From positions 62,001 through 126,000 of the forward strand of contig NZ_JAEPBG010000015.1 of assembly GCF_016632335.1 (NCBI RefSeq): a DNA stretch of 64,000 nt. Reading direction: 5' to 3'. Shown here one piece after another: positions 9,642-53,020 of this stretch. The notes beneath the pieces were generated by a model. That model saw only the letters and a list, made by a program, of their open reading frames with translations, was not told the DNA's origin and searched no databases. Position 1 is the stretch's first letter. Each line of letters opens with the position of its first letter. The position numbers and the translations under genes are program-made. This stretch comes from Noviherbaspirillum pedocola (GTDB lineage Bacteria; Pseudomonadota; Gammaproteobacteria; Burkholderiales; Burkholderiaceae_D).

Positions 9642-9659
9642 GGGAGATGCGCCACACGG
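9642..9659 (-). promoter_or_regulatory. Bipartite backbone element, copy 1
   Basis: Minus strand CCGTGTGGCGCATCTCCC, with CAACGC 13 nt further on; 54 nt upstream of the start at 9588. Confidence 0.6.
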
Positions 9660-9675
9660 AAGCACAAAAGAAAAA

Positions 9676-9699
9676 GCGCCTCGGGGATGTCCGAGGCGC
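9676..9699 (-). terminator. Intrinsic terminator
   Basis: GCGCCTCGG/CCGAGGCGC stem and minus-strand T-run after the gene ending at 9735. Confidence 0.85.
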
Positions 9700-9734
9700 G
9701 TGGTTGAATGGCCCGCTCAGAAAGAACCGTTGCA

Positions 9735-10067
9735 TCAAATGGCAGCCGGTTCGCAGCGTATCCAGCCGAGCCGCGGATACCATTTCGCGGTCGTGAGCGA
9801 TTTCAGGTAGAAGCGTTCTGCGTCATACACCTGTTCCCACAGCTGATCCTGCTTGCGCTGGAAGAAGCCAAGGATCGCGTCCGATACCGGATCGGTGCCG
9901 TTGACGACGGTCCCGAGCAGCTGCGGATCGTCCGAACTGCAATAGAACGCCTGACAGGGGGCATTGAGTGGCCGCCATGACACGCGCCCCTGCAAGCCGG
10001 CAACACGATAGTCGGACACGCCCTGGTAGTTGGAAATGAACTCGGGTTGGCTTGTTGCGGCAGACAT
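9735..10067 (-). CDS. Hypothetical protein (110 aa)
   Basis: Start at 10067 is supported by AGGAG 8 nt upstream; the open frame continues upstream but without a ribosome site. Aromatic-rich C-terminus (ERFYLKSLTTAKWYPRLGW). Soluble; function unknown. Own terminator; the bipartite element is not clear upstream. Confidence 0.65.
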   Translation of the reverse strand: MSAATSQPEFISNYQGVSDYRVAGLQGRVSWRPLNAPCQAFYCSSDDPQLLGTVVNGTDPVSDAILGFFQRKQDQLWEQVYDAERFYLKSLTTAKWYPRLGWIRCEPAAI

Positions 10068-10153
10068 GAAAATCTCCTGTGAGAGTTGAACTTGCACAGT
10101 CGAGATGACTTTCATGGAATTAGAAGATGGGATAGGGCGGGAAAAAAATAAAA

Positions 10154-10175
10154 AGCGCCCCTTGGAAGAGGCGCT
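10154..10175 (-). terminator. Intrinsic terminator
   Basis: AGCGCC/GGCGCT stem with T-rich tail on the minus strand, after the gene ending at 10201. Confidence 0.75.
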
Positions 10176-10200
10176 GTGCAGGTTGATTGGGGATATCGGC

Positions 10201-10434
10201 TTACGCCTGGATGGCTTCCTGATCCCGCCAGTCGCGGATGCCGAGTTCTTCTTCCATGACTTCGGCGACCTCCTGGGCGAGATCGGGCCGGTGCCGGCAG
10301 ATGTAGTTGGCCAGCGGCCGCGTTCGCATCGGGTTCGATTCGAGCACGCGCATGACGTCGACCTTGCGCAGCGCACCAATGGAGTCGGCGGCCACTTTAA
10401 TGAACAGCTCGAGGTTTTCAGATTCGTGTTGCAT
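10201..10434 (-). CDS. Hypothetical alpha-helical protein (77 aa)
   Basis: Start at 10434 fixed by AAGGAG. Highly charged helices (LELFIKVAADSIGALRKVDV; AQEVAEVMEEELGIRDW) resembling a small helical adaptor; unrecognised. Preceded by a copy of the bipartite element (10490-10507). Confidence 0.65.
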   Translation of the reverse strand: MQHESENLELFIKVAADSIGALRKVDVMRVLESNPMRTRPLANYICRHRPDLAQEVAEVMEEELGIRDWRDQEAIQA

Positions 10435-10489
10435 GAGTTTGCGCTCCTTGTCGTGATGGGGAAAGCAAGAGACTCGTTCTCTTGGTGAA

Positions 10490-10507
10490 GATGAATGCCG
10501 CACACGG
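10490..10507 (-). promoter_or_regulatory. Bipartite backbone element, copy 2
   Basis: Minus strand CCGTGTGCGGCATTCATC, 56 nt upstream of the start at 10434; the second box is weak. Confidence 0.5.
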
Positions 10508-10534
10508 ATCTGGAATCAGGACGGCCAAAGAAAA

Positions 10535-10560
10535 ACCCGCGCCTGGTGAGAGGCGCGGGT
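10535..10560 (-). terminator. Intrinsic terminator
   Basis: ACCCGCGCC/GGCGCGGGT stem with minus-strand T-run after the gene ending at 10586. Confidence 0.85.
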
Positions 10561-10585
10561 GGTAGCGGTTATCGAAGCAGGCAGG

Positions 10586-11572
10586 TCATGTTGGACCGGC
10601 CGCTTCACCGTAGGCGCCAGCCGGCAGCGCCCATTCCTCCATGAAGATCGGCAGATCGTACGTCTCGGACATCGCCACGCGCACATGCTCCGGATCCATC
10701 GCATACGGCGTGCCGCGAGCAATGGCTTTATCGATGTCGCCATCGCGCCGAAGCGTGACGCCAAACTCCTGCTCGTGCTTTCGGATCTGGATGATCTTGT
10801 GCGGAGCAATCTGCGCGACGCTTGCCCATTGCGACGGGCTACCGAAGATGCAGGTCTGGCAGCTGCACCGACTCCAGCCAAGCCAATACGCGGGATGCGC
10901 CCGGATGCGATGGCGTTCCATGATGGCCCATACTTCCTTTTCTGACCACTTATGGACTGGGCGCCACTGCCACACCATGCGCTTGCCATTGCTGGTCTTG
11001 TGCGGCTCGGCCTCGGCATACTTCGACCTCGCTGTGCTTTCCTCCGCGCGCTCGCCGGTAACCAGGCAAGTGCGCTTGCCGGTGAACCGGTCCTGGTTGG
11101 CGATCGCCATTGAACATATATCGATTTTGAGCGAGCTCGAGCACCACCTAGTAGACAGGTTGGCCGATTGCTGAGGGAATTTCCGTCTTGTAGACGGCGT
11201 GCCCCGGATGCCGCCAGCCTTCATCAGGCCGGTCGGTGTTTCGAACAGCGTTGGCGCGGTCAATGCGTTTTCCCGAAGGAGTTCCCGCGCAAACCCGCCT
11301 TCGCGCCAACTGAAGTACAACGGAATACCGAGCGCATCGGCAAATGCGCGGACATAGGCATGCGTGCATGGCCAGTCCATCTTCAGCTGACCGGTGTCGC
11401 CGTCATCGATCTCGTGATGCCAAAGCTCGATGCGGTCCTTCGGGATGCCCAACTCGAGGACGTGCAAAACGCACGCGACCGAGTCCTTACCGCCTGAAAA
11501 ACCAATGATGACCTTATCGAACGCGAACGGATCGAAGGCATCGCTGGTGACAAACAACGTTACTTGTTCCAT
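10586..11572 (-). CDS. PP-loop ATPase, PAPS-reductase-like family
   Basis: Adenylyl-transferring N-type ATP pyrophosphatase related to PAPS reductase and to DndC-like sulfur-transfer proteins; substrate unknown. It has 328 aa. The PP-loop SGGKDS lies near residue 25 (KVIIGFSGGKDSVACVLHVL), WHHEIDDGD follows, and CSCQTC (about 235) suggests a metal or Fe-S site. GGAG sits upstream of the ATG. Monocistronic, with its own terminator and a copy of the bipartite element (11618-11634). On mobile elements such proteins may act in DNA modification, defence or cofactor chemistry; I cannot choose between these. Confidence 0.8.
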   Translation of the reverse strand: MEQVTLFVTSDAFDPFAFDKVIIGFSGGKDSVACVLHVLELGIPKDRIELWHHEIDDGDTGQLKMDWPCTHAYVRAFADALGIPLYFSWREGGFARELLRENALTAPTLFETPTGLMKAGGIRGTPSTRRKFPQQSANLSTRWCSSSLKIDICSMAIANQDRFTGKRTCLVTGERAEESTARSKYAEAEPHKTSNGKRMVWQWRPVHKWSEKEVWAIMERHRIRAHPAYWLGWSRCSCQTCIFGSPSQWASVAQIAPHKIIQIRKHEQEFGVTLRRDGDIDKAIARGTPYAMDPEHVRVAMSETYDLPIFMEEWALPAGAYGEAAGPT

Positions 11573-11617
11573 CTCTCACTCCATAGAAAGAAGGCCTATT
11601 GCGTAGGCCGGACTCTC

Positions 11618-11634
11618 GAAAATGAGAAACACCG
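11618..11634 (-). promoter_or_regulatory. Bipartite backbone element, copy 3
   Basis: Minus strand CGGTGTTTCTCATTTTC with CAATAGG further downstream; 46 nt from the start at 11572. Weaker spacing match. Confidence 0.45.
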
Positions 11635-11666
11635 AACAAGAAGCGGAAATGGCGCGGCAATGAGAA

Positions 11667-11687
11667 AGCCCGCATCGGTAGCGGGCT
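11667..11687 (-). terminator. Intrinsic terminator
   Basis: AGCCCGC/GCGGGCT stem after the gene ending at 11723; tail only moderately T-rich. Confidence 0.65.
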
Positions 11688-11722
11688 GCGCGACGAGGCT
11701 TAACTACGTCTCTTTTATGAGA

Positions 11723-12082
11723 TCAGCGTTCGTGGGAAGCCGCCTCAATCAGGCAGCCCGAGAGTTTGTCGAAGTACAGCAATGCCGCCTGCGTGAGCTC
11801 GATCTGCTTGCGCCGCATGTCTTCCGTATCGGCCAGCGCGATCCATCCCTTCTCGCGCATGGACTTGAGCCGCGTATGAATGGTCGCCGGAGCGCCCAGC
11901 TCTGCACGGGCCATCATGTCGCGTACCGAAAGCCGGCCACCCTCCGTATCCATGCGCGCAATGATTTGCAGCATGCGCTCCTCCAGCGGATCGAGGGCGG
12001 GCAACATCGGCAATTCCCGGATGGAGTCAGTGAGTTGCAGGAAGCGGAGATAGATATCAGCAGGGCGTTGTCGCGGTCTCAT
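11723..12082 (-). CDS. MarR-like winged-helix regulator
   Basis: A 119-aa protein from the ATG at 12082 (MRPRQRPADIY). The winged-helix core runs LDPLEERMLQIIARMDTEGG, then VRDMMARAELGAPATIHTRL as recognition region and KQIELTQAALLYFDKL as wing and helix, as in MarR-type regulators. No ligand can be inferred. The weak ribosome site leaves the start uncertain. A candidate for the backbone regulator, but not evidenced as such. Confidence 0.65.
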   Translation of the reverse strand: MRPRQRPADIYLRFLQLTDSIRELPMLPALDPLEERMLQIIARMDTEGGRLSVRDMMARAELGAPATIHTRLKSMREKGWIALADTEDMRRKQIELTQAALLYFDKLSGCLIEAASHER

Positions 12083-12310
12083 TGCGGGTGAAGCCAAATC
12101 TAAACTAAAGAAAACTGGTTGCCTGGTGAAGGCAAGCCGACTCAGGAAGAGGCAGTGAAGGTAACGGAAACGGGTCGCGTTTGACGCGCCTTCTCGCACA
12201 CAGTTCGTTTCTTCGCAATAACCCTGCATCTCGCACGGTGGTTAACGGTCGGCAACAACATTGTCTTCTGTATAATCAATTGCAATTCGTTTAACACATG
12301 GGCGGACAGC

Positions 12311-12826
12311 ATGACTTTCCTGAAGCTGGCATTGGGACTGGGCCTGATCTGGTTCATCTTCGCCTTCCTGCTGGTGATCCACGAATATGGCCATGCGTGG
12401 GCCATGCGCCGCCTGGGCATGCGCGTCGATCGGATCGTCATCGGCACCGGGCCGGTGCTGTTCCGCACCGGCGAAGACGAATTCCGCCTGCTGCCGCTCA
12501 TCGGCATGGCGATCAGCAAGGACTACGCCAAAGCTTCGCTCGAGGCGCGCGCCGTCGCCGCTGCGGCCGGTCCTGCGGCCTCTCTCCTGCTCGGTCTGTT
12601 CCTGCTGCTGGCCTACTGGCTCATGCCGGCATGGGCGACGCTGATCGCCGCCAAGGCCTCCCTGCTGCTGGCCGCCATCAACCTGATACCCTTGCCGCCC
12701 TTTGATGGCTTTACGATCGTTGAAGCTTCTCTCGCTCGCCGTGGGCTGCGCATCGACGAAGGCCAGCGGCGCCAGCTCTTCGCCATCGGCATCGGAACGA
12801 TGGTGCTGCTCACCCTGGTGCTTTGA
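12311..12826 (+). CDS. Site-2 protease family (M50) membrane metalloprotease
   Basis: A 171-aa integral membrane protein. The zinc-binding HEYGH lies in the first helix (LVIHEYGHAWAMRRLGM, about 24) and the third ligand motif NLIPLPPFDG is at about 124, both intact; several hydrophobic helices flank them. Short for the family and without a PDZ domain. A TATAAT-like box precedes it at about 12271. Transcribed divergently from the MarR-like gene. Confidence 0.85.
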   Translation: MTFLKLALGLGLIWFIFAFLLVIHEYGHAWAMRRLGMRVDRIVIGTGPVLFRTGEDEFRLLPLIGMAISKDYAKASLEARAVAAAAGPAASLLLGLFLLLAYWLMPAWATLIAAKASLLLAAINLIPLPPFDGFTIVEASLARRGLRIDEGQRRQLFAIGIGTMVLLTLVL

Positions 12827-12841
12827 ATTCTCTGGAAGGGC

Positions 12842-13189
12842 TCAGGCTTCCGTGGCAACGCGGTTGTCTATCGCTTCGCGCAGGTGCATGACGAACGCTG
12901 CCAACTCACCGTCTGACAGGCCGGTGGTGTCAAAGCCGGGATAGCGCCTATTGCCTGCCCCATCAGTGGACGGCAGATACAACAGTTCGTACCCCAACCC
13001 TTTGATCAGCAACTCGGCGGGCATGGCCAGCTTCCTCGGCGTGATGTAGAAACATGTCCCCTTCACTTTGCCGACCCGGTTGGTGTCGAAAGCGCCCCGG
13101 AATTCCGGACGCAAATCAAAAACGGCAACCCAGTTTTCCCGATCTTTCAGCGACAGACCGGCATGCGCAAGCACCTGAAAAATACCCAT
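12842..13189 (-). CDS. Hypothetical protein (115 aa)
   Basis: Converges on the M50 gene with a 15-nt gap. Starts at an ATG at 13189; a GTG at 13225 in the same frame is possible. Contains WVAVFDLRPEFRGAFD, GTCFYITPRKLAMPAELL and ELLYLPSTDG. No family recognised. Confidence 0.55.
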   Translation of the reverse strand: MGIFQVLAHAGLSLKDRENWVAVFDLRPEFRGAFDTNRVGKVKGTCFYITPRKLAMPAELLIKGLGYELLYLPSTDGAGNRRYPGFDTTGLSDGELAAFVMHLREAIDNRVATEA

Positions 13190-13316
13190 CGCTTTATTGA
13201 TTTTAATTTCTAAATGGAAAGGCACGCAGTGTAGCAGTCTCCGCTTCTGTTCGACATTCTCCTGGCTGCGTTGTGCGCATACCGTACCGAGAACCAGACA
13301 TCGAAACTGTTATTTC

Positions 13317-13345
13317 TTGACGGAAATTAATCAAGCAATGATAAT
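13317..13345 (+). promoter_or_regulatory. sigma70 promoter upstream of the porin leader
   Basis: TTGACG (13317-13322), 17-nt spacer, GATAAT (13340-13345); start predicted near 13352. Confidence 0.7.
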
Positions 13346-13351
13346 TCGGTT

Positions 13352-13420
13352 TCCGATAAGAAACTTTTATCGGGCCAGGAGCCAGTCATTTCGCGCGAAT
13401 GACTGGCTCTTGTGTTTTTG
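13352..13420 (+). ncRNA. Attenuator leader or small RNA upstream of the porin gene
   Basis: The RNA would start with a hairpin CCGATAA/TTATCGG (13353-13373), immediately followed by a strong terminator hairpin (GCCAGTCATT/AATGACTGGC, 13381-13407) and a T-rich tract. The porin ATG is 39 nt beyond the tract. Either a ~69-nt stand-alone RNA or a leader that attenuates porin transcription. Confidence 0.6.
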
Positions 13421-13458
13421 GCCTTCGGGAATATGCAATCAGCAATTGAGATTTTGGA

Positions 13459-14475
13459 ATGAAGCACTCGTATGCCGTTCTGACGGCAGCCCTCCTCGCC
13501 TGCGCCACCCCGTATGCGCAGTCAGCCGTCGAAGTGTACGGCTCCATCGATGCCGGGTTACGCAATCAGACGAACGTCAACGCTGCCGGCGATAGCAAGA
13601 CCACCATGAGCTCGAACGGCACCTACAACTCGAATCGCCTCGGGTTCAAGAGCACGGAAGACCTCGGCAACGGCTGGAACACCCATTTCACGCTGGAGAG
13701 CGGCTTCAACAGCGGCACCGGCGCACTGAACAATCCTGTTGGGCGCCTCTTCCTGCGCACGGCTTCCGTGGGGGTCGGCCACAAGCTCGGCATGCTGGAC
13801 CTGGGACACCAGTACACGAATGCGTTCATGACGATGTATGGCTACGATCCGCTCTCGTTCCAGTATTCGAGCATCAATCCGATCATGCCAGCCACGGCCG
13901 GCGTCTGGTTCGACAACGACATCAAGGTCATCGGCACCTTCGGCCCGGTCTACACGCTTGCCGAGTGGTCGCTCGGGGAGCAGGCAGGGTCGACGGCTGC
14001 AGGCTCAGCGCGATCCCTCGCCATGATCTACAACGATGGGCATGTCTCGGCCGGCGCTGCCTATACCGACCGGCGCAGTCTGTCGAACCCGAAGACAACG
14101 CACTGGACCGCAGGCGGCGCATACCGCTTCGGCAAAGCCAGGGTTTCGGCTGGATTCGTCGATGAAACCGCCAACGTGCTGGCCGCGGGTGGAGACACGC
14201 ACAACCGGCACGCGTGGGCCGGCGTGAACTATGCCCTCTATCCTTCCATCGAACTCACTGCCGCAGCGTATCGACAGAAGCTCTCCGGCGTGCTCGCCAA
14301 CGGCAACACGGCGGATGGTTCCAGGAACCTGTATCTGCTGTCCGCGACCTATGCGTATTCCAAGCGCACCAAGTTCTATGCGATGGTCGACCAGGCGCGC
14401 ATGTCCAATGCCCTGCTCGCCTATGGGCATGATCGGCAGCGCGATCTCGCCTTCGGCATCAACCATCTGTTCTAA
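13459..14475 (+). CDS. Gram-negative porin
   Basis: Outer-membrane trimeric diffusion porin of the betaproteobacterial type. It has 338 aa. Signal peptide residues 1-22 (MKHSYAVLTAALLACATPYA), then SAVEVYGSIDAGLRNQTNV, the typical first strand. The rest alternates as beta strands and ends in a terminal phenylalanine (FGINHLF), needed for BAM insertion. The promoter and attenuator-like leader lie directly upstream. Shares a terminator with the convergent chemoreceptor. Confidence 0.92.
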   Translation: MKHSYAVLTAALLACATPYAQSAVEVYGSIDAGLRNQTNVNAAGDSKTTMSSNGTYNSNRLGFKSTEDLGNGWNTHFTLESGFNSGTGALNNPVGRLFLRTASVGVGHKLGMLDLGHQYTNAFMTMYGYDPLSFQYSSINPIMPATAGVWFDNDIKVIGTFGPVYTLAEWSLGEQAGSTAAGSARSLAMIYNDGHVSAGAAYTDRRSLSNPKTTHWTAGGAYRFGKARVSAGFVDETANVLAAGGDTHNRHAWAGVNYALYPSIELTAAAYRQKLSGVLANGNTADGSRNLYLLSATYAYSKRTKFYAMVDQARMSNALLAYGHDRQRDLAFGINHLF

Positions 14476-14498
14476 TTCCGCCGGCGCACAAAGAAAAA

Positions 14499-14522
14499 CG
14501 CCCTGACCTTTCGATCAGGGCG
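14499..14522. terminator. Intrinsic terminator between porin and chemoreceptor
   Basis: CGCCCTGA/TCAGGGCG stem; A-run on the left gives a minus-strand T-tract. Confidence 0.8.
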
Positions 14523-14541
14523 CTCCACGATGTTCTGTTGA

Positions 14542-16260
14542 TCAGAACTCTTCCCAGTCTCCGCCAGACGCGGCAGGCGTAACTGCCGATCGGAGGCGCG
14601 GCGCAGGCGCTGCCACGGCCTTCGAGGACGCCTTCCTGCCAGTGACTATGGGAACTGCCTTGCGCGTCACAGGTGCGCTTGCCGTACGCTCGACACGCGC
14701 CAGCACCGGTTCATTGCTGAGTTTGAACTGGCTGACTGCCCGCGACAGCTGCTGCGACTGGTCGCTCATGGACTCGGAGGCCGCGGCCGCCTGTTCCACC
14801 AGCGCGGCATTCTGCTGCGTGACCTGATCCATCTGGGCAATTGCCTGATTCACCTGCTCGATGCCGGCGCTCTGCTCGTTGCTCGCCGCCGAGATCTCGG
14901 CCACGATATCCGTCACGCGGCGAATGCTCGCTACCACTTCCTCCATGGTCTGGCCCGCCTCACCCGCCAGATGCGTGCCGGCGTCGACCTTGGCCACGGA
15001 ATCGCCGATCAGGTCCTTGATCTCCTTCGCCGCGGCCGCAGACCGTTGCGCCAGACTGCGCACTTCGCTGGCCACCACGGCGAAGCCCCTGCCCTGCTCG
15101 CCGGCGCGCGCCGCTTCCACGGCCGCATTCAGCGCCAGGATATTGGTCTGGAAAGCGATGCCGTCGATGGTGCCAATGATGTCGGAAATCTTGCGGGATG
15201 CGGCCTCGATCTCGCTCATGGTGCCCACTACCTGCGACACCACCGCGCCGCCGCGCTCGGCAACCTCGGAAGCCGACTCGGCAAGCTGGTTGGCCTGACG
15301 GGCGTTGTCGGCGTTCTGCTTGACCGTGGAGGTGAGTTCCTCCATCGAAGAAGCGGTTTCCTCCAGCGAGCCGGCCTGCTGCTCGGTGCGCGAGGACAGG
15401 TCCTGATTGCCCGAGGCAATTTCCGCGGACGCCGTTCCGATCGCTTCGGTGCCGACCCGGATGTCGCTGACGATCTTCAGCAGATTGCCGTTCATGTTCT
15501 TCAGTGCCTGCTGCAGCTGGCCAATCTCATCGCCAGTCGTGACGTCGATCAGGCCGGTCAAATCGCCGTCGGCCACGCGCTGCGCGCCCTTCACCGCCGC
15601 GTTCAACGGGCGGGTAATGCTGCGGGTCAGCCATGCGGCACAGACGATACCGAGCGCCACGCACAGCAGCGCCAGCAACATCACGCGGTTGCGGCTCTGT
15701 TGCCGCAACTTTGCGATATCTCCCGCCAGCTCATCGAACTGCGAACGCTGCATGCTGACGAACTCCCGGAGCGTATCCTGATACGCCTGCGCCGCCGGCA
15801 GGTACGTCTTGTCCAGCACAGCGTTGGCTTCGTCCAGCTTGCCCGCCTCCTTGAGCTTGATAGCCTGATCGCGGCTGCTCAGATAGGTCTTCCGGACTTC
15901 AATCGCCTTGGCGTAGAGTTCTTTCTCCTTGGCGCTGTTGAGCATCGGCTCCAGCTTCTTGAGGATTTCCGCACTGCTCTTGGTGGTTTCTTCGGCCGCC
16001 TTGGCAAAGAACGGCGCCAGTGAGGTATCGGTGCTCTTGGCGATGGCCGAGGTACGGGCAACGGCAACGGAGATATTGCTGCTCCAGTCGCTGGCAAGCC
16101 GCTCCTTTTTGATCGGCTCATCGAGCATCTTCTCGGCCGCGTCGGACACAGTGTTCAAATTGACGATGCCGATGATCGTGATAACGATCGACAGGCCCAG
16201 AACGATGGCGAACCCGAGAGCAAGGCGGCTCCCGATGCGCATGTTGGATAGTAATTGCAT
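14542..16260 (-). CDS. Methyl-accepting chemotaxis protein (4HB type)
   Basis: Membrane chemoreceptor of 572 aa. TM1 at about 12-32, a periplasmic four-helix-bundle ligand domain (about 33-190), TM2 at about 191-212, HAMP, then a long cytoplasmic signalling coiled coil with the conserved hairpin tip ([20 protein letters not shown]). It ends GGDWEEF, a C-terminal pentapeptide of the kind that docks CheR/CheB. No ligand can be predicted. No che genes are in the window, so it presumably feeds a chromosomal array. Confidence 0.93.
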
Positions 16261-16441
16261 AGTGCTTATCTTCTTGTTGATTGTTCAATTTTCGACCAGG
16301 CATACGGCGGCCTGGCATTTGTTGCCATTTGTTATCGGTCCCCACCCGTTGCATCTGAATGTCAAATTGGCATCAATATAAAATTTTATAAACTGAAACT
16401 GTCCTGAACCGTTGTCATACGGGCCATGCGGCAAAAGAAAA

Positions 16442-16466
16442 CGCCCTGATCGAGATGACCAGGGCG
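16442..16466 (-). terminator. Intrinsic terminator
   Basis: CGCCCTG/CAGGGCG stem with minus-strand T-run after the gene ending at 16478. Confidence 0.8.
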
Positions 16467-16477
16467 CGGCAACTACG

Positions 16478-18292
16478 TTAAGCGGCAAGCTCCAGCTCCG
16501 TTTGTGCGGAGTCGGAAGTTGCCTTGCTGGCCCATATCTTCCGGGCCGCTTCGGGCAGCTGATTGAAAGGGATCGCCTTTTCCAGCAATGCGTTGATGTC
16601 GTAGTCCAGGGTCGCGCCAAGCCGATCCTTGAACGCGGTTCTCTTCAGCACTTCGTCATGCTTGGCAAGCTGCGCATGCGAGAGGGTGATCACGCCGTAC
16701 TGCACATAGAACTTGTAGGCCTGCGTGATGCCTCCCCGGTTGTAGGAAGCGTCATACATGGCCAGCATGTTTTCCATCTCGAAGTCCAGAAGCATGACCG
16801 CGGATTCCTGATCAACCGTAAAGCCCTGCTCGGTCTCCAGATCCCATACCGCGCTTCCATCCTTCAACAGACGGATGTCCGGCGTGCAGCCGCTTCCTTC
16901 CGTTAGCGCTTCCACATACGCATCCCTCATCCCCGTCCAGGCGGAATCCGGTGCGCTGTTATCCCAGTCCTTGCCGACATACAGGAACTTCGCATCCGGC
17001 AGTGGCGTTTCCTTGAAGGGCGCCACATCCGGGATATCGAAGCGGATGCCCTTCTCGTAGATGGAACGATAGTCGTCCCAAATAGCGAAGGGACGGGCAA
17101 TGCCGTTAAGCGACTGCAATGCATCGACCGCGATCATCATCTCCAGGGGCAGCAGCGTGAACTTCCGTTGCTCTCCTGCGCGGCGGGACCGCACCCATTC
17201 ATCATGATCGAGCTGCATCATGTACCGGGTGAGATTGCGAAGCTCGGTCGGATGCAGCGTATCGGGCTGAATCAGGATGTAGCCTTCCTGGATGGTGCGA
17301 CCCACCCAATGCCGGCGACTCCAGTCCTTCTCGATGGCGCGCAGATACTTGTTGAGACGGTTCAACCCTCGCATGTAAACATAGCGCGGATCGAGCTCGA
17401 TCATTGCCGCAAGCGACTTGTCTTCCGCTTTTAGGCATGTGAAACAACCATGCCTCGCGCCGCAGCCGCCCTTCTTCTGCCGACCTTCATAGATGCTTTG
17501 CGCCACAACCGCACACGACGTTCCCGCCGAGTGCGCGTAGATGCGAAGCGTTTCTTTGAAGTCCGAGTAGGCTTCGCGAAGGCCAGAGCTACATTCTCCG
17601 AGATACTCGAAGATATCGTCCTCCGACCAGTATTGCACCGGGCAGAGAACGAGTTCTCCGTCCTTGTTGCGCACTGGCGTTTCGGCCCTTGCTCCGCTTT
17701 GCCGCATCCGCGCAGCCCTAACTTCGGACTCCTGGATACGCATGCCGAGACAGGTGACCGGCTCGCGCATCCCCTTCTCGGCAAGCACCCGGAACAGCTT
17801 CTTCCGGTACGACTTTTGCGCCTGTAGCTTAAGGTCTACGGCGCAATCGTTGCCCCCCGATGCCCAGCTTGGGATACCGCGCCCCGACAACACTTTCACC
17901 TGGAAGGTGGACAGCAATGGCGGGGTGACGAACTTGCCGAAGAAGCGGATGCCATGCTGCTCGGCGAAGGCGTGCAGCTTGCCCATCTCCTCCTTGGCCA
18001 TTGCATGGACCTCCGGATTTTCGACCAAGGTATCCGAGCTGGTTGCCACGACAAGCGGGCGACCGCCCTGGCTTGCGAAGGTCTTCGCCGCGTTCATCAC
18101 GATGGACGTGACGACTGAGCTGTCCTTCCCAAACGACGTCGCTACCACAATGGGATGCCCTGCCGCGAACAGATCCATGATCACTTCAGTGGCCGAAGCC
18201 ACCTGGTCCTCCAGCGACATGGTGATGTCTTCCATGCGGAAGAGCTGCAGCGTCTGATACTTCTCGGTACGACCGACTTCGATGGTTTGCAT
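16478..18292 (-). CDS. DndC-like PP-loop protein (604 aa)
   Basis: Large PP-loop ATPase resembling DndC and phage or plasmid PAPS-reductase-like proteins. ATP loop SFGKDSS at about 59 (VATSFGKDSSVVTSIVMNAA). A cysteine cluster CGARHGCFTC (about 280) fits an Fe-S or zinc site, and CPVQYWSEDDIFEYL matches the family. The C-terminal ~250 residues are not recognised. No dndA/B/D/E genes are adjacent, so a complete phosphorothioation pathway is not present here. The first 24 codons are duplicated as a separate leader ORF at 19590-19664; MSLEDQ at codon 25 could be the ancestral start. Preceded by the bipartite element. Confidence 0.75.
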   Translation of the reverse strand: MQTIEVGRTEKYQTLQLFRMEDITMSLEDQVASATEVIMDLFAAGHPIVVATSFGKDSSVVTSIVMNAAKTFASQGGRPLVVATSSDTLVENPEVHAMAKEEMGKLHAFAEQHGIRFFGKFVTPPLLSTFQVKVLSGRGIPSWASGGNDCAVDLKLQAQKSYRKKLFRVLAEKGMREPVTCLGMRIQESEVRAARMRQSGARAETPVRNKDGELVLCPVQYWSEDDIFEYLGECSSGLREAYSDFKETLRIYAHSAGTSCAVVAQSIYEGRQKKGGCGARHGCFTCLKAEDKSLAAMIELDPRYVYMRGLNRLNKYLRAIEKDWSRRHWVGRTIQEGYILIQPDTLHPTELRNLTRYMMQLDHDEWVRSRRAGEQRKFTLLPLEMMIAVDALQSLNGIARPFAIWDDYRSIYEKGIRFDIPDVAPFKETPLPDAKFLYVGKDWDNSAPDSAWTGMRDAYVEALTEGSGCTPDIRLLKDGSAVWDLETEQGFTVDQESAVMLLDFEMENMLAMYDASYNRGGITQAYKFYVQYGVITLSHAQLAKHDEVLKRTAFKDRLGATLDYDINALLEKAIPFNQLPEAARKIWASKATSDSAQTELELAA

Positions 18293-18333
18293 AGATCTCT
18301 CCTGTGTAAGAAGGCTGGATTGCCCTGACAGGA

Positions 18334-18351
18334 CGGAAATGCGTTACATCG
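18334..18351 (-). promoter_or_regulatory. Bipartite backbone element, copy 4
   Basis: Minus strand CGATGTAACGCATTTCCG, then 13 nt, then CAATCC; 42 nt upstream of the start at 18292. Confidence 0.65.
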
Positions 18352-18384
18352 CTATGGAAGCCGCGGCGGGGGCAGAAAAGCAGA

Positions 18385-18418
18385 GAGCCGGGCGCGACGC
18401 ATGGTCGGCCCAGCTCTT
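18385..18418 (-). terminator. Hairpin AGAGCCGGGC/GCCC-GCTCT (duplicated)
   Basis: Terminator-like stem with minus-strand T-run; part of the duplicated segment, so it may have arrived with it. The gap 18421-18480 contains no gene that I can see. Confidence 0.6.
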
Positions 18419-18481
18419 TGGTTAGGGGCTTCCGGCGGCCAATCGTTACGGAAACACTGTATCCAGGCGCCAGCCAAAAAA

Positions 18482-18511
18482 ATGCCCGGTCTCCAGAGGA
18501 GAGCCGGGCAT
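18482..18511 (-). terminator. Intrinsic terminator
   Basis: ATGCCCGG/CCGGGCAT stem and seven-base T-run on the minus strand, after the gene ending at 18611. Confidence 0.8.
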
Positions 18512-18610
18512 GGTTTGAGAAGTTACGTCCGATGGATGTGCCTTTGAGAGGGAGCCTTGGCCGGCTAGTGGTACTGCTGCGCCAGCTTGAATAGTTACAT
18601 CGTTGTCTTT

Positions 18611-19516
18611 TCAGACCAACTGCGCCCACAGACCCGGCCGATGCAGCTTGAGCCAATCCATGGCGCTGTCTTCGTCCACCGAACACTCGAAGCCCACATG
18701 GTTGCGGGTAGTGTGAGTGGCGCGGCAGAACGCGAACAGGTCCGCAATGCCCCGGTTGCTCTTCTCGAAGAATTCCGCAACTACGTCCGAAGGCTCATCG
18801 CCCTTCCAGCCGATGCCGTGGAGGTTGATGATCTGCTCCTCGGTGGCCTGGGCAAACCAGGGCGCAGCGTCGAACTCTTCCTTCTTGAAGTGCGAGTCAT
18901 CGTGAACTTCCGCGTAGACCCGAACTCTTGGCAGAACACCATACCGCTTACGCAGACCGTCGGCCCGCTCCGCCTCCAACTCTTGAAGAGGAACCCGCTG
19001 CGGCCACTCGCTGTACGGACAGATTTCATCCGAGCAGTAATCGCCTTCCATGTGGCTGCCACACCTCGCGCATTCGGCACCGGCTTTACCGGCCACCAGC
19101 GCCTGACTGCTCTCCCCGACAGCGTGGTAGTCGATGTCTGCCTGTTGGGCCAGCGCCGCCATGAAAGCCGCATCCTTCTCGGCCACCGTGGCGCCGACCG
19201 GCGCTTGGAACTCGACATTAAGCTGGGTGCCCTCGTAGCCAAAATAGCCCTGAAACACCTGGACAGCCTCGGTTGCCTTGTACGAGTCGGGAATCAATGC
19301 ATACACATCGTTCCACGACCAGTCTTCGGGCTCCGCCGGCGCGGCCAACTCCAGCGTTTGAAATTCGACACCAAGGGCCTTGGCAAGATACGGCGCCACC
19401 TTGGCAGGATCGGTGCCTTTTTCACTGGTCTCCGACGACAAAACTGCATCCGCATTCACGAACAGGGCTGCATCGCCGTTGGTCAGCTTCACGAGGATGA
19501 TTTCCGCTCGCTTCAT
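18611..19516 (-). CDS. Hypothetical protein with a zinc-finger-like Cys cluster (301 aa)
   Basis: Start at 19516 is fixed by AAGGAG 6 nt upstream (MKRAEIILVKLTNGDAALF). A central CARCGSHMEGDYCSDEICPY looks like a treble-clef or zinc-ribbon metal site. The C-terminal half includes ATEEQIINLHGIGWKGDEPS. Not recognised. The 5' side is notable: a 24-codon leader ORF and a 10-bp-arm hairpin lie between the promoter element and this start, suggesting leader control. Confidence 0.65.
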   Translation of the reverse strand: MKRAEIILVKLTNGDAALFVNADAVLSSETSEKGTDPAKVAPYLAKALGVEFQTLELAAPAEPEDWSWNDVYALIPDSYKATEAVQVFQGYFGYEGTQLNVEFQAPVGATVAEKDAAFMAALAQQADIDYHAVGESSQALVAGKAGAECARCGSHMEGDYCSDEICPYSEWPQRVPLQELEAERADGLRKRYGVLPRVRVYAEVHDDSHFKKEEFDAAPWFAQATEEQIINLHGIGWKGDEPSDVVAEFFEKSNRGIADLFAFCRATHTTRNHVGFECSVDEDSAMDWLKLHRPGLWAQLV

Positions 19517-19553
19517 TTGATACTCCTTCTTGAGAAAATAGCAGGAGTCCTGG

Positions 19554-19583
19554 CCCATAAGGGCCTGGAAACTCCCTTATGGG
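19554..19583 (-). promoter_or_regulatory. Leader hairpin CCCATAAGGG/CCCTTATGGG
   Basis: Perfect 10-bp arms with a 10-nt loop, 6 nt after the stop of the leader ORF and 37 nt before the start at 19516. No T-run follows, so it may act at the translational level. Confidence 0.6.
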
Positions 19584-19589
19584 TAAGTG

Positions 19590-19664
19590 TTAACTGATGT
19601 CTTCCATGCGGAAGAGCTGCAGCGTCTGATACTGCTCGGTCCGACCGACTTCGATGGTTTGCAT
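19590..19664 (-). CDS. 24-aa leader peptide / truncated copy of the DndC-like N-terminus
   Basis: ATG at 19664, stop at 19590, 24 codons. It differs from the first 24 codons of the DndC-like protein only by Lys-to-Gln at position 11 and Thr-to-Ser at position 24, then stops. The ribosome site and bipartite element upstream are kept. Conservation of the frame with a clean stop suggests a functioning leader rather than debris, but simple duplication is equally possible. Confidence 0.5.
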   Translation of the reverse strand: MQTIEVGRTEQYQTLQLFRMEDIS

Positions 19665-19798
19665 GAATCTCTCCTATGTAAGAAGGCTGGATTGCCTAAC
19701 AGGATGGAGATGCGTTACATGGCTATGGAAACCGAAGCGGATGTTGAAAAGCAAAGAGCCGGGCGCGACGCATGGTCGGCCCGGCTCTACGGAAGAAA
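19593..19798. repeat. ~200-bp segmental duplication, copy 2
   Basis: Second copy of 18222-18420: leader codons, ribosome site, promoter element and terminator hairpin (about 19762-19794). Here the hairpin follows the tandem small-gene trio and serves as its terminator. Confidence 0.85.
19706..19722 (-). promoter_or_regulatory. Bipartite backbone element, copy 5
   Basis: Minus strand CCATGTAACGCATCTCC, 12 nt, CAATCC; 42 nt upstream of the leader ORF start. Confidence 0.65.
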
Positions 19799-19803
19799 TT
19801 CGT

Positions 19804-19929
19804 CTAAAGCAAAGTCTTCGGCTGGCTGGTCCGCCCTTGGTGTTCTTCCAGCGGCGATGTGAGGTCGAGATAAACGATTACTGCCGCGAAGGCAGCAATG
19901 AATCCGAGAGTGACGTAGAGCGCGTTCAT
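19804..19929 (-). CDS. Tandem small membrane protein, copy 3 of 3 (41 aa)
   Basis: Starts MNALYVTLGFIAAFAAVIVY, one hydrophobic helix then a polar tail ending in LL. GAGG precedes the ATG. Paralogue of the two genes that follow in coordinates; last in transcription order. Confidence 0.7.
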   Translation of the reverse strand: MNALYVTLGFIAAFAAVIVYLDLTSPLEEHQGRTSQPKTLL

Positions 19930-19949
19930 GCTTCGCCTCGTCCTATGGC

Positions 19950-20072: not shown

Positions 20073-20098
20073 CTGCAATCCTCCTTACTGAAAACATA

Positions 20099-20224: not shown

Positions 20225-20320
20225 CGTTCCGTTCCTCCGCGCATGACGTTGCAATTGAGTCTATTGTAGCCACAGTACCGCGCAGAATCGCGCAACCTGA
20301 TTCCCGCACAAAAGAAAGAA

Positions 20321-20347: not shown

Positions 20348-20400
20348 CGGGTTGGGTTAACGATACCGGTCAAGGAAAGGCGCAAAGCCCTTCCATGACC

Positions 20401-22014: not shown

Positions 22015-22030
22015 GGAGATGACAAACAGG
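22015..22030 (-). promoter_or_regulatory. Bipartite backbone element, copy 6
   Basis: Minus strand CCTGTTTGTCATCTCC, then GAACGCCGGC; a CCGGC/GCCGG hairpin follows. 70 nt upstream of the start at 21945. Confidence 0.55.
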
Positions 22031-22065
22031 GACCAGCAAGAAAAATCAGGCAGGAAAAGAAAAAA

Positions 22066-22466: not shown

Positions 22467-22484
22467 CCGAGATGCGCCACAAGG
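22467..22484 (-). promoter_or_regulatory. Bipartite backbone element, copy 7
   Basis: Minus strand CCTTGTGGCGCATCTCGG, 12 nt, CAATCCC; 68 nt upstream of 22399. Confidence 0.6.
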
Positions 22485-22521
22485 AAATGCAAACGCTGAT
22501 CAGCAAATGGAGAAATACAGG

Positions 22522-25981: not shown

Positions 25982-25999
25982 GGAGATGCGAAACACGGG
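25982..25999 (-). promoter_or_regulatory. Bipartite backbone element, copy 8
   Basis: Minus strand CCCGTGTTTCGCATCTCC, 12 nt, CAACTCC, then a CCGGC/GCCGG hairpin. 59 nt upstream of 25923. Confidence 0.65.
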
Positions 26000-26026
26000 C
26001 GCACAAGCCGTGCCGCAAAAGAAAAA

Positions 26027-27976: not shown

Positions 27977-28138
27977 GATGCTTCTCCTGAGAGGTCATAT
28001 CCGGTCCTTGCGGGAACCTGGATACGGGGTGGGTTGAGGGTCGAGACGTGATTTCCCAAAGCGAGAGTTCGCCGGGCGAATAAGGAATGACCAACAGGAG
28101 AGTGGAAGGCGGAACGAGGAGAAGCGGCTGCGTGGACG

Positions 28139-38297: not shown

Positions 38298-38317
38298 GGG
38301 GAAATGGGAAACGCCGG
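38298..38317 (-). promoter_or_regulatory. Bipartite backbone element, degenerate copy
   Basis: Minus strand CCGGCGTTTCCCATTTCCCC, 65 nt upstream of the start at 38233. The core GTTTCnCATyTCC matches; the second box is unclear. Confidence 0.45.
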
Positions 38318-38483
38318 GCGATAAGAGGGAGCGCTAAGACAAGGCGGGCAAGCGCCATCCCTTCGCGATGGCAGCTTTAGCGGGATGACGGAAGAAAGTT
38401 CTCTGTCGGAAATATTTACACTGCCGCAACATGCATCGAAAAGAGTTTCTCCAAATCATTGATTTAAATAAATATTTACTTTC

Positions 38484-43096: not shown

Positions 43097-43115
43097 GGGG
43101 ATGCGAAACACGCGG
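43097..43115 (-). promoter_or_regulatory. Bipartite backbone element, copy 9 (PRTRC operon)
   Basis: Minus strand CCGCGTGTTTCGCATCCCC, 13 nt, TAATCC, then a CCGGC/GCCGG hairpin. 62 nt upstream of 43035; closely matches copy 8. Confidence 0.65.
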
Positions 43116-43247
43116 TGATAACCGTGGAGAAAGGAACGGACGGAAGCGGGGACACAATGCGGGGGAAATGGCCGGCGATTTGCGCTATGGCAATCGAGCG
43201 CAGTCAAACGCATGTATATTTGCCAATGATTTTTTCAGAGGAACGTA

Positions 43248-49190: not shown

Positions 49191-49207
49191 CCGAGATGCG
49201 CCACATG
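49191..49207 (-). promoter_or_regulatory. Bipartite backbone element, copy 10
   Basis: Minus strand CATGTGGCGCATCTCGG, 11 nt, CAAATTC; 46 nt upstream of 49145. Confidence 0.6.
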
Positions 49208-49245
49208 AAAAGACAACGCTACGCTTGCCGCCGGCGGCATGAAAA

Positions 49246-49762: not shown

Positions 49763-49779
49763 TGGAATGCGGCACACGG
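49763..49779 (-). promoter_or_regulatory. Bipartite backbone element, copy 11
   Basis: Minus strand CCGTGTGCCGCATTCCA, 13 nt, CAACCCG; 68 nt upstream of 49695. Confidence 0.6.
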
Positions 49780-49814
49780 AAACAGAAGCAGTTTAGGCTT
49801 TGGCATAAGAAAGA

Positions 49815-50775: not shown

Positions 50776-50792
50776 CAGAGATGCATCACAAG
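50776..50792 (-). promoter_or_regulatory. Bipartite backbone element, copy 12
   Basis: Minus strand CTTGTGATGCATCTCTG, 10 nt, CAACGG. Confidence 0.5.
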
Positions 50793-50822
50793 AAAGAGGA
50801 AGCACGTTCGTGCGGCAAAAAA

Positions 50823-50850: not shown

Positions 50851-50861
50851 GGTTTGCGGGT

Positions 50862-51443
50862 TCAGCATGGAAGGTCCGAGCGGATTTCCAGTTCCGACGG
50901 CATTGCACCGAGCGAATAATTCCCGGTGTCGCCAATCCAGCGGATACCGATCGGTCGCTGAGGATGATCCGAGATGTTATCGACCCACGCGATGCCGCTG
51001 CGGAAGGAACTGGCGAGATAGAAGCGGCACCAGCTTCCGACCTTGATCGGCGCACCGGTGCGATCGGCAAGATGCTGCTCTCCCGCGCTAGATGGTTGAA
51101 GCGCCAGCAGGGCCAGGCGCGCGCCGCGTTCGATGACGTTATGGATTTTCGCCTTGGCGTGATGCGCTATCCGTTCGACATTCACCGAACCGCACCAGGT
51201 GAACTGCTCGCCGATGTCGACCGCATCGAACGTCTTGAATCGAACGCATCCTGCCGCTTCCACACGAACGCCAAACGCCGTGATCCGGCCAAACGAGCCA
51301 AGCCCTTCCCTTACCATGTCAGCGACCGCGGCCGTATCCTCAGTGTCGGTTTTGAGGATGACGGTAGCGGGCAGGTCTTGCCCACCGACTTCATGGTCAT
51401 CGTTATGATCGCGTACTGCGACAACTACAGCTGCAACTGCCAT
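50862..51443 (-). CDS. Hypothetical backbone protein (193 aa)
   Basis: Start at 51443 fixed by AAGGAG. Begins with a hydrophobic beta strand (MAVAAVVVAVRDHNDDHEVG), later KVGSWCRFYLASSFRSGIAWV. No family recognised. Bipartite element directly upstream (51476-51492). Confidence 0.65.
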   Translation of the reverse strand: MAVAAVVVAVRDHNDDHEVGGQDLPATVILKTDTEDTAAVADMVREGLGSFGRITAFGVRVEAAGCVRFKTFDAVDIGEQFTWCGSVNVERIAHHAKAKIHNVIERGARLALLALQPSSAGEQHLADRTGAPIKVGSWCRFYLASSFRSGIAWVDNISDHPQRPIGIRWIGDTGNYSLGAMPSELEIRSDLPC

Positions 51444-51475
51444 ATCAATCTCCTTACGGGTTATCTGTGATAGGA

Positions 51476-51492
51476 GGAAATGGCTCACATGG
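51476..51492 (-). promoter_or_regulatory. Bipartite backbone element, copy 13
   Basis: Minus strand CCATGTGAGCCATTTCC, 14-15 nt, AACCCG; only 33 nt upstream of 51443. Confidence 0.5.
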
Positions 51493-51533
51493 AAATGGAG
51501 TCGCTTCTTGTTGCGCCGGCATCCAAAGAAAAA

Positions 51534-51558
51534 CCCGGCTCTCACAAGAGAAGCCGGG
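51534..51558 (-). terminator. Intrinsic terminator
   Basis: CCCGGCT/AGCCGGG stem with minus-strand T-run after the gene ending at 51586. Confidence 0.8.
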
Positions 51559-51585
51559 CCGGTGATTGATGATGAATGCGAAAGG

Positions 51586-52125
51586 CTATTTGCCTTCGTT
51601 AGTTGCGGCGTCAGACGAATCGGGGAACACCACCTGATCCCAAGTCCAGCCGCCGCCGATCTGGTAGACCACAACGGGCTGGCCGTCGCAGACAATCGTT
51701 TGCGGGTGATGCTCCTCCGGCTCCTCGCCTTCGAACTGCACGACGAATACGCCGGTGGCTTCGTTGAACGTGATACCGGGGATTGCTTCCGCGACTTTCA
51801 GCGCCGTGTCCTTGTCGAACAACGGCATGCCCCAGCCGTTCCACCGCGATCCATCGCTGTAGCAGGAAAAGACCTGACCATCATCGAGAAAGTCCGCCGT
51901 CACCGTGCCACGACGCATCACAGGTGGCGGTGCAACCTCGAACTGCGCTGCGAACTCCTCGGCCGACAGCATGCCGCTGAAGCCACCGCCTTGCGGCCAG
52001 ATGTTGATGCGGCCATCCGCTTCGGTCCGCGCCTCGTAGAGCCCGCCATGCTGCTTGTGCTGATAGTACGTGCGCGCCAGCGTATCCTGCTGTGCTTCCT
52101 GGCTCTTGTTTCCTTGTTCGTCCAT
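51586..52125 (-). CDS. Hypothetical acidic protein (179 aa)
   Basis: Start at 52125 (MDEQGNKSQEAQQDTLARTY) with AGAGGA upstream. Repeated Gly/Trp patterns (NIWPQGGGFSGMLSAEEFAA, IGGGWTWDQVVFP) suggest a beta-sandwich. Unrecognised. The bipartite element is not clear here. Confidence 0.65.
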   Translation of the reverse strand: MDEQGNKSQEAQQDTLARTYYQHKQHGGLYEARTEADGRINIWPQGGGFSGMLSAEEFAAQFEVAPPPVMRRGTVTADFLDDGQVFSCYSDGSRWNGWGMPLFDKDTALKVAEAIPGITFNEATGVFVVQFEGEEPEEHHPQTIVCDGQPVVVYQIGGGWTWDQVVFPDSSDAATNEGK

Positions 52126-52286
52126 GTGTTCCTCTCCACGTGGTGATTGAAATTCCGCCTTCGCGGGTTTGCTGTGCCTATGGATATGGCCAACATCGAT
52201 CACCAGGCATATGCAGCGGCCGCATGGCAAGGGATAAGAATCCTCCTTGGTGAGAATCTACGGGAACGCTTCACCAAAAAATAAAC

Positions 52287-52315
52287 GCCCCGGCATCCTT
52301 GAGGATGCGCGGGGC
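52287..52315 (-). terminator. Intrinsic terminator
   Basis: GCCCCG.ATCC/GGAT.CGGGGC stem with an A-rich left side, after the gene ending at 52325. Confidence 0.8.
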
Positions 52316-52324
52316 AGGTTTGGG

Positions 52325-52903
52325 TTAGGCAAAGGTGCTCGCGGATATCGGCATACGGCGGGTGCCGAGCTGCACGAGCTCGTTGAGGATGTCGTCGTGG
52401 TCCACCCCACTTCTTCGCGAGGTTTCGAACGAAGCCCTAACGGCATCGTAGAAGCACATGGCCGAATACCTGTCGGTGGGGACCGCTTCCCCGCCGAGTT
52501 CTTCGACCGGCTCTCGTTGCGAGGTATGGGTACGCTGCGCCTCCTCGTTTTCCCATTGCCGGCGTTCCGCAACAGTAAGCGGCCCGCTGAGCGCTGCATT
52601 CACGACCGTCCGGAATTCGGCGAGCTGTTGCTCGTCGTCGACCGGGATCTGTCCGTGCACCGATGCCGACACGTTGAAGCGCAGGCTGTACTGGTAGTAC
52701 GGCGCCGGTACCCGCTGCTTGTCGACGTAGATCATCGGTCGCTGCAGGTAGTCGTCAGCGGAATCGAAATACCGGCGCACCGGCCATCCGCGTCCACCGC
52801 GTAGCGACTCTCGGCGCGGGTCCAGCGCCAGCACCTGCATCAATGCACAAGCACTTCTCCACTCCACATCCTTGCTGCTGACTTCCTGGGGCCAAATCAC
52901 CAT
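52325..52903 (-). CDS. Hypothetical backbone protein (192 aa)
   Basis: Start at 52903 (MVIWPQEVSSKDVEWRSACA) has AAGGA 8 nt upstream; 52918 is possible. Contains WPVRRYFDSADDYLQRPMIY and YYQYSLRFNVSASVHGQIPV. Unrecognised. A degenerate bipartite element is at 53001-53020, followed by a GCGGC/GCCGC hairpin. Confidence 0.6.
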   Translation of the reverse strand: MVIWPQEVSSKDVEWRSACALMQVLALDPRRESLRGGRGWPVRRYFDSADDYLQRPMIYVDKQRVPAPYYQYSLRFNVSASVHGQIPVDDEQQLAEFRTVVNAALSGPLTVAERRQWENEEAQRTHTSQREPVEELGGEAVPTDRYSAMCFYDAVRASFETSRRSGVDHDDILNELVQLGTRRMPISASTFA

Positions 52904-53000
52904 CTTCTTTTCCTTCATGGGCAAGAGGCGCGACGTATCCCGAGCGGGAGTTCATCGAACCTGTTTGTTTGAAATAGCGGCATTGCCGCGTTCACATGCC

Positions 53001-53020
53001 CATGGAAATGCCAAACAGCG
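53001..53020 (-). promoter_or_regulatory. Bipartite backbone element, degenerate copy
   Basis: Minus strand CGCTGTTTGGCATTTCCATG; 98 nt upstream of 52903. Confidence 0.4.

Follow-up and report, generated by a model that had tools for sequence, protein, structure and literature searches.

Introduction

Conjugative plasmids of large size meet many hosts in which their genes must be expressed, and for many backbone genes neither a function nor a mode of regulation is known. CnrH of pMOL28 is an extracytoplasmic function (ECF) sigma factor, carried on a Cupriavidus plasmid, that is known to serve one metal-resistance operon and is not known to serve the backbone. SigN (ZpdN), encoded on the Bacillus subtilis plasmid pBS32, is reported to be only weakly similar to known sigma factors and active as one in vitro, and to serve many plasmid genes under a promoter consensus of its own, which its authors did not find on the chromosome (PMC6751061). 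ECF factors use sigma-2 for the −10 box and sigma-4 for the −35 box, with a strict spacing between the two that is best at 17 bp for sigma-H (PMC6411747). Here we describe a repeated promoter-like element in a 64,000-nucleotide stretch of Noviherbaspirillum pedocola DNA (the window), each copy of which is probably a promoter read by one plasmid-encoded alternative sigma factor, likely a 364-amino-acid (aa) protein encoded on the same contig.

The window comprises bases 62001–126000 of contig C7 (146,794 bases) in a genome of 7.24 Mb and 80 contigs. Because it holds F-type transfer, PRTRC and signalling genes, C7 is, judging by gene content, a piece of a plasmid or an integrated relative of one. 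The original prediction, made from the letters of the window alone, placed the element at 15 positions and attributed it to one plasmid regulator or a dedicated sigma factor. PMC full-text searches, which do not reach subscription papers or supplements, listed no earlier report of the element or of the protein.

Results

A single gapless motif in front of plasmid genes

The repeated element is genuine and stronger than first described. All 15 predicted places hold it on the minus strand, and it proves to be a single gapless motif, TT-N9-TGT-N4-CATYTC, with a weaker AAC 16–17 nucleotides (nt) after CAT. Aligned on the first base of TGT (position 0), it has TT at −11/−10, Y at −8, TYC at −4 to −2, TGT at 0 to +2 and CAT at +7 to +9, followed by YTC. 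The window contains 20 copies, all on the minus strand and 41–120 nt before start codons, in which spacing is fixed and TT is present in 18/20, T/C-GT in 19/20 and CAT in 20/20. The core proposed originally, TGT-N3-GCATYTC, does lie on the minus strand throughout, but occurs in its exact form only 8 times; TT, T/C-GT and CAT are the conserved part, and G stands directly before CAT in 10 of the 19 matrix sites. The upstream TT-N9 and five copies (TGT at 5596, 6536, 10114, 28096 and 52195) had been missed, and the copy given at 11618 is real but was read in the wrong register, its TGT being at 11631 and not 11638. A full second box, CAAYCC, is not upheld: it is exact near 4/20 sites and AAC alone is conserved, 17 nt after CAT in 7/25 and 16 nt after it in 3/25 of the C7 sites, and at 16 nt in 16/50 sites of relatives. 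An A at +21 is found in 34/50 sites of relatives and in 10/25 on C7.

A first matrix, built from 14 sites, added five to them, each on the minus strand (scores 25.1, 21.5, 20.0, 17.0 and 13.5), where the best plus-strand score was 12.6 and five simulated strands reached up to 16.9. The last of the five (52195, 13.5) is within chance by score and was accepted because it lies 70 nt before a 179-aa open reading frame (ORF) with a good Shine-Dalgarno (SD) sequence. The refined matrix (19 sites, with 19719 excluded as a near-copy) gives 20 minus-strand matches at a score of at least 17 against none on the plus strand (best 13.3), and none in 20 order-2 simulations (best 15.8). Since 19 of these 20 matches trained the matrix, the weight rests on the out-of-sample tests described below. 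A match at 35987 (minus; 13.2 with the first matrix, 13.5 with the refined one) was dropped, as no start follows it, and another at 59134 (minus; 11.6), followed after 71 nt by a 379-aa ORF, scored too low to be kept. Enrichment over a shuffled control, the check that the original prediction had called for, is found: when the 130 nt before gene starts are compared with dinucleotide shuffles, TGT-N4-CAT ranks first of 77,824 gapped trinucleotide pairs in the window (17/52 upstream regions vs 1.27 expected), on a list of 52 starts that was drawn up after the sites had been seen, includes starts chosen by the element and is not blind.

The element beyond the window

Outside the window, C7 carries eight matches (scores 16.8–25.4) before ORFs with SD sequences, on the plus strand at C7 positions 29033, 32786, 57294, 139210 and 140364 and on the minus strand at 3658, 4965 and 34865. 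The element follows gene orientation, as the five plus-strand copies precede plus-strand ORFs. Weaker C7 matches with no gene behind them are those at 10996 (15.9), 134361 (14.9) and 32936 (14.0), all minus, the match at window 35987 already mentioned, and four further plus-strand ones at 11.5–13.3; one weak match, at 137921 (plus, 13.3), does precede an ORF. In the genome as a whole the sites are concentrated on C7, which makes up 2% of it and holds 14 of the 24 strict matches; C7, C17 and C24 together hold 20/24, and the reversed control gives 3. The further clusters, on C17 (52570–69688) and C24 (3071–24452), are perhaps pieces of the same plasmid.

The same element is found on plasmids of Pseudomonas, Burkholderia, Caballeronia, Cupriavidus and Methylibium. 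Here the matrix trained on the window only was applied out of sample, to parts of plasmids at a score of at least 13 with 100 column-permuted matrices as control. In 49 kb of pSTY (Pseudomonas sp. VLB120) it has 16 matches, 15 of them 44–87 nt before annotated starts, where permuted matrices average 0.5 matches and 0.11 before starts; 41 kb of pBVIE01 give 12 matches, 7 before annotated starts, and 42 kb of pMOL28 give one, not before a start. Over whole plasmids (score at least 14; means of 30 permuted matrices in brackets), pSTY has 27 matches, 24 of them before an ORF with an SD sequence (2.5 and 0.4), and pBVIE01 has 42 and 35 (2.7 and 0.4). The gapped-pair search agrees: before annotated starts TGT-N4-CAT ranks second in the 49 kb of pSTY (19/68 vs 2.35; the leading pair there, TTA-N16-ATC, reflects this element too) and third for the 41 kb of pBVIE01 (11/50 vs 1.68), while none of these patterns is among the top twelve gapped pairs in the 42 kb of pMOL28.

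A sigma-like protein on C7

The candidate reader is a 364-aa protein encoded at C7:145325-146419 on the plus strand, about 19 kb beyond the end of the window. It was found via comparison with a gene of plasmid 1 of Aromatoleum aromaticum EbN1 that is annotated as a sigma-70 family factor. In tblastn, 32 plasmid records match it (Pseudomonas 17, Cupriavidus 8, Stenotrophomonas 2, five genera one each), and 30 of them cover at least 80% of its length; PVLB_RS25930 is a further sigma-like gene of this kind. The records label the protein hypothetical, except for EbN1 and one without annotation. Its N-terminal half resembles ECF sigma region 2 and is kept across beta- and gammaproteobacterial plasmids. 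Among 10 aligned members, the NCBIfam model SigZ matches 7/10 (best 5e-6) and sigma70-ECF 5/10 (best 8.7e-5). The N-terminal 156 residues of a relative, modelled with AlphaFold, have a mean predicted local distance difference test score (pLDDT) of 79.9, which rises to about 92 in the first 90. The seven top-ranked Foldseek matches to this model are sigma-factor structures (probability 0.98–1.00), of which six are E. coli sigma-E, and four of these six include DNA of the −10 type. For 2map and 4lup, sigma-E region 2 on a −10 strand, the probability is 1.00, with a template-modelling (TM) score by target of 0.65–0.70, a root-mean-square deviation of about 3 and E-values of 0.17–0.20. In place of region 4 the protein has two Xre-type helix-turn-helix (HTH) domains, Pfam HTH_3 matching 10/10 members. 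The full-length model (mean pLDDT 71.2, predicted TM score 0.34) has two C-terminal helical domains, and among its matches at E 0.04–1 are sigma factors and domains of the Xre/Cro type, for example HigA2 and P22 c2.

On all nine close-relative plasmids inspected, the gene immediately preceding the sigma-like one encodes 94–98 aa; its relative on C7 lies at 142101-142361 on the minus strand, 3 kb from the sigma-like gene. A second, similar small gene precedes the first on pMOL30, pBVIE01 and PM1. Comparison covered the small neighbours of five plasmids plus EbN1, and a Pfam scan of six of the small proteins found no family above cut-off; from its position the product may be a partner or an anti-sigma factor. 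In L013 (19137-19421), L014 (19132-19416) and L016 (19144-19434), small proteins encoded two genes before the sigma-like gene have four cysteines each and are similar to the small protein adjoining it.

The protein and the element occur together

We counted matches to one pattern, TTN9YGTN4CATNYC, on 17 plasmid records plus the own genome, with the reversed pattern as control. Nine close-relative carriers of the protein have 13/2, 23/10, 23/9, 15/5, 22/10, 17/10, 21/3, 12/3 and 18/5 forward/reverse matches, that is 15–33 per record vs 0–3 for the reversed pattern. On seven PRTRC plasmids that lack the protein the counts are 0–6 vs 0–3: pMOL28 has 1/1 (control 0), pPNAP01 0/1 (control 3), four others 0/1, 0/0, 0/0 and 1/0 (control 0 each), and pHG1 is taken up in the Discussion. 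In the scanned parts of pMOL28, pPNAP01 and pHG1, all of which have PRTRC, no element stands before a gene, and PRTRC itself was rejected as the carrier of the system. Of 195 genomes of the family, 10 match the protein: 4, which all belong to the window's genus, do so over nearly the full profile, and 6, of Oxalobacter, over the HTH half. All four genomes of the window's genus that were examined carry the protein and have their element matches grouped on few contigs. The original proposal, a single plasmid regulator or else a dedicated sigma factor, is supported to this extent, that C7 encodes a protein with likeness to sigma region 2 which co-occurs with the element.

A distant relative with a changed promoter

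The EbN1 protein (EBN1_RS20860; record label sigma-70 family) is 24–25% identical to that of C7 and has the same architecture, with HTH_3 and a weak Sigma70_r2 match (E 0.006). Its plasmid lacks the standard element, with 0/1 pattern matches (control 0/1) and 3 matrix matches on the whole plasmid, 2 before an ORF with an SD sequence (permuted 1.7 and 0.4), because it uses a promoter variant of its own. In 42 kb of it the top gapped pair is TTT-N16-CAT (16/48 regions vs 2.0 expected), and 17 hand-picked sites, for which CAT at the same spacing was the picking criterion, have TT at −11/−10 in 17/17, no TGT, and in most TGCAG at +18 to +22. TT-N16-CATYTC is therefore common to the C7 and EbN1 promoters and the middle differs, which fits a shared sigma-2 that would read CATYTC and an HTH part that has diverged.

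The copies in the window and their genes

An ORF of at least 50 aa follows 18 of the 20 copies, two of these having a poor SD sequence. Each copy is given here by its 24-bp span, on the minus strand, and its TGT. The first, at 5584..5607 (TGT 5596), lies 67 nt before a 106-aa ORF, and that at 6524..6547 (CGT 6536) lies 41 nt before a 43-aa ORF with a good SD sequence. At 9644..9667 (TGT 9656) the element is 68 nt before a 181-aa ORF, at 10102..10125 (10114, a TGA variant) 47 nt before a 110-aa ORF, and at 10492..10515 (TGT 10504) 70 nt before a 77-aa ORF. Two genes with a PAPS_reduct domain follow, of 328 aa (59 nt after the re-registered copy at 11619..11642) and 604 aa (56 nt after 18336..18359, TGT 18348). 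The copy at 19707..19730 (TGT 19719) is a near-copy of 18348 and stands 55 nt before a truncated gene start: window 19590-19730, in which the element and the first 24 codons of the 604-aa gene (at 18292) are nearly repeated and end in a stop, is by its sequence a partial duplication of promoter and gene start. Next come 22016..22039 (TGT 22028), 83 nt before a DUF4942/methyltransferase gene; 22469..22492 (TGT 22481), 82 nt before a 94-aa ORF with a poor SD sequence; 25983..26006 (TGT 25995), 72 nt before a 146-aa ORF; and 28084..28107 (TGT 28096), 120 nt before a 412-aa ORF.

Further on, 38301..38324 (CGT 38313) lies 80 nt before an ORF matching PRTRC protein B of other plasmids and 43098..43121 (TGT 43110) 75 nt before PRTRC ParB. 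The remaining copies are at 49193..49216 (TGT 49205), 60 nt before an 89-aa ORF; 49764..49787 (TGT 49776), 62–72 nt before 77- and 133-aa ORFs; 50778..50801 (TGT 50790), 105 nt before a 275-aa ORF; 51477..51500 (TGT 51489), 46 nt before a 193-aa ORF; 52183..52206 (TGT 52195), before the 179-aa ORF at the distance given above; and 53005..53028 (TGT 53017), 62–99 nt before 66- and 197-aa ORFs with a poor SD sequence.

The second box had also been equated with the half-site of palindromes at 3160 and 62795. These repeats are a separate element: GGATTG-TG-CAATCC occurs at window 3161-3174 and 62799-62812 (C7:65161 and 124799) and also at C7:3678, 128758 and 129998, five copies which are all on C7, with none elsewhere in the genome, and 4/5 of which are extended to TTGGATTGTGCAATCCAA. 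It is a second plasmid-specific element, perhaps a partition or operator site. Elsewhere in the window, two matches that face each other, at 8208-8266 (+) and 8427-8493 (−), come close to the gathering score (50) of the Rfam family Betaproteobacteria_toxic_sRNA, with 49.5 and 45 bits.

Discussion

How would such a promoter work? If one plasmid sigma factor reads every copy, its N-terminal region 2 would contact the host RNA polymerase and melt and read a −10 box, GCATYTC, while the two Xre/Cro-type HTH domains would hold the upstream duplex, that is TGT and the TT near the −35 position. The spacing of TT-N16-CAT is close to that of ECF promoters. Transcription would start between about +13 and +28 after TGT, perhaps at the A at +21 or at AAC near +26 to +29, since the smallest intervals between TGT and start codon (25–33 nt in three doubtful cases, then 41–51 in 25/75 sites) leave room only between CATYTC and the SD sequence; a short leader carrying the ribosome-binding site would remain. 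Each backbone gene or operon would form a unit of its own, composed of element, gene and sometimes a terminator directly before the next element. A terminator-like hairpin lies at most 95 nt upstream of 9/25 C7 sites vs 8/600 random places.

Several observations weigh against this assignment. All region 2 sequence scores are below curated cut-offs, Pfam Sigma70_r2 matches 1/10 members, and a profile search of the PDB gives E 0.14 or worse, with two sigma-E region 2 chains first (0.14–0.17, profile positions 82–127); the Foldseek E-values of the N-terminal model are 0.17 or worse. The region 2 assignment rests on the agreement of three methods. Region 4 is absent, with no Sigma70_r4 in any of the 10 members at E up to 1, and on C7 the sigma-like gene has no copy of the element in front of it. 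pMOL30 carries the protein and has 7 matrix matches over the whole plasmid, 5 before an ORF (permuted 1.5 and 0.7; one permuted matrix reached 6), and 7 of its 13 forward pattern matches belong to one array of 48-bp period (NC_006466, 189018-189449) that looks like a tandem repeat and not like promoters; with this exact matrix the case for pMOL30 is weak. Its copies include those at 11601, 12302, 23668, 46124, 55603, 136656 and 136769 of NC_006466. A slight excess is seen on pHG1, which lacks the protein (2/4, 6 matches vs a control of 1). The nine carriers, which with EbN1 were taken from the 30, include near-identical pairs and amount to fewer than nine independent cases. Three Oxalobacter genomes with the HTH half only have 5, 7 and 6 strict matches vs 1 each reversed. 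Finally, co-occurrence does not single out which shared protein reads the element, the comparison having covered C7.

The protein, or its HTH domains, might instead be an ordinary activator or repressor, with the sigma-2 part a relic and a poor host promoter near each copy. We consider this unlikely. It would accommodate the two Xre-type domains, and relatives restricted to the HTH half (186–192 aa on Oxalobacter chromosomes, 205 aa in a Burkholderiaceae metagenome-assembled genome) imply that this part can live alone; these relatives (L035-L039) are 49–56% identical to the protein over the matched part and lack sigma-2. The 18 strict Oxalobacter matches (vs 3 reversed) would also suit it, but they are taken as chance because 2/18 precede an ORF with an SD sequence and most lie inside long open frames, and the matrix has no match before an ORF in 96 kb around the Oxalobacter-type genes. 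As for a host promoter nearby, the element consensus has neither the −35 nor the −10 box of the housekeeping sigma-70 (RpoD), and sigma-70-type TTGACA/TATAAT pairs at 16–18 nt are not in excess in 9000–28000 on both strands (7 vs 5.6 expected). The element stands within a narrow, promoter-like range before the start, with CATYTC where an ECF −10 box belongs, and the N-terminal part is conserved across beta- and gammaproteobacterial plasmids.

A different plasmid factor could read the element, the sigma-like gene being a fellow passenger of the backbone, which we hold to be decidedly improbable. Conjugation and other backbone genes are indeed also common to these plasmids: by Pfam, the C7 proteins with relatives on pBVIE01, pMOL30 and pSTY alike are transfer proteins, an integrase, a response regulator with GGDEF, a lone receiver, a PAPS_reduct protein, a UvrD-type helicase, PRTRC ParB (a weak ParB match) and one of no family. 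Among these ParB and the integrase do bind DNA; apart from them, only the sigma-like protein appears, by its domains, to be built to bind DNA like a regulator, the rest being transfer, repair or signalling proteins. Plasmids whose PRTRC ParB is about 45% identical, however, lack the element or nearly so, and on EbN1 a divergent sigma-like protein goes with a divergent promoter.

A host alternative sigma factor or other host regulator is very unlikely to be the reader and is not upheld, as matches are concentrated on C7, C17 and C24, with 4 strict matches elsewhere in 7.24 Mb vs 3 for the reversed pattern genome-wide, and the same element recurs on plasmids of other genera. That the element is an RNA leader (riboswitch, antitermination or binding site) can hardly be entertained and was rejected: several sites are followed by a small hairpin, nine come soon after a terminator-like one and 4/15 leaders of 65 nt have a fold z below −2, but over all 15 z runs from −2.9 to +1.3, an Rfam scan gives 0 matches at gathering score and none of its 19 weaker matches falls on an element, and what is conserved is DNA-like, a primary sequence at fixed spacing that begins 11 bp before TGT.

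With a plasmid sigma factor as the preferred reader, we lean towards the view that the protein represents a new sigma class, in which an ECF-type region 2 is joined to two Xre/Cro-type HTH domains replacing region 4, and which serves, on F-type-mating megaplasmids of beta- and gammaproteobacteria, a private promoter for dozens of backbone genes that would function alike in any host. That the protein works as a sigma factor, reads the element and starts transcripts in the place proposed we infer from sequence and structural models. If true, a private factor and promoter would explain backbone expression in many hosts, and the plasmid may carry into every new host a gene-expression system that does not depend on the promoters present there. 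On pSTY, pBVIE01 and perhaps pMOL30, dozens of unknown genes would gain promoter maps, and the family would provide a clean case for whether a sigma factor can do without region 4.

How does this compare with known systems? EBN1_RS20860, for all its common architecture, differs in promoters without TGT and mostly with TGCAG. ECF factors, represented by the sigma-E region 2 structures and the SigZ model, share the region 2 fold and the strict promoter spacing, while the C7 protein has two Xre/Cro-type HTH domains where they have region 4. The sigma-H boxes, GGAAYA and GTT (PMC6411747), differ from GCATYTC and TT...TGT. SigN and the C7 protein are likened here by description: their promoter sequences differ, and sigma activity is deduced for the C7 protein, but both would be plasmid genes with a plasmid regulon defined by its promoter consensus.

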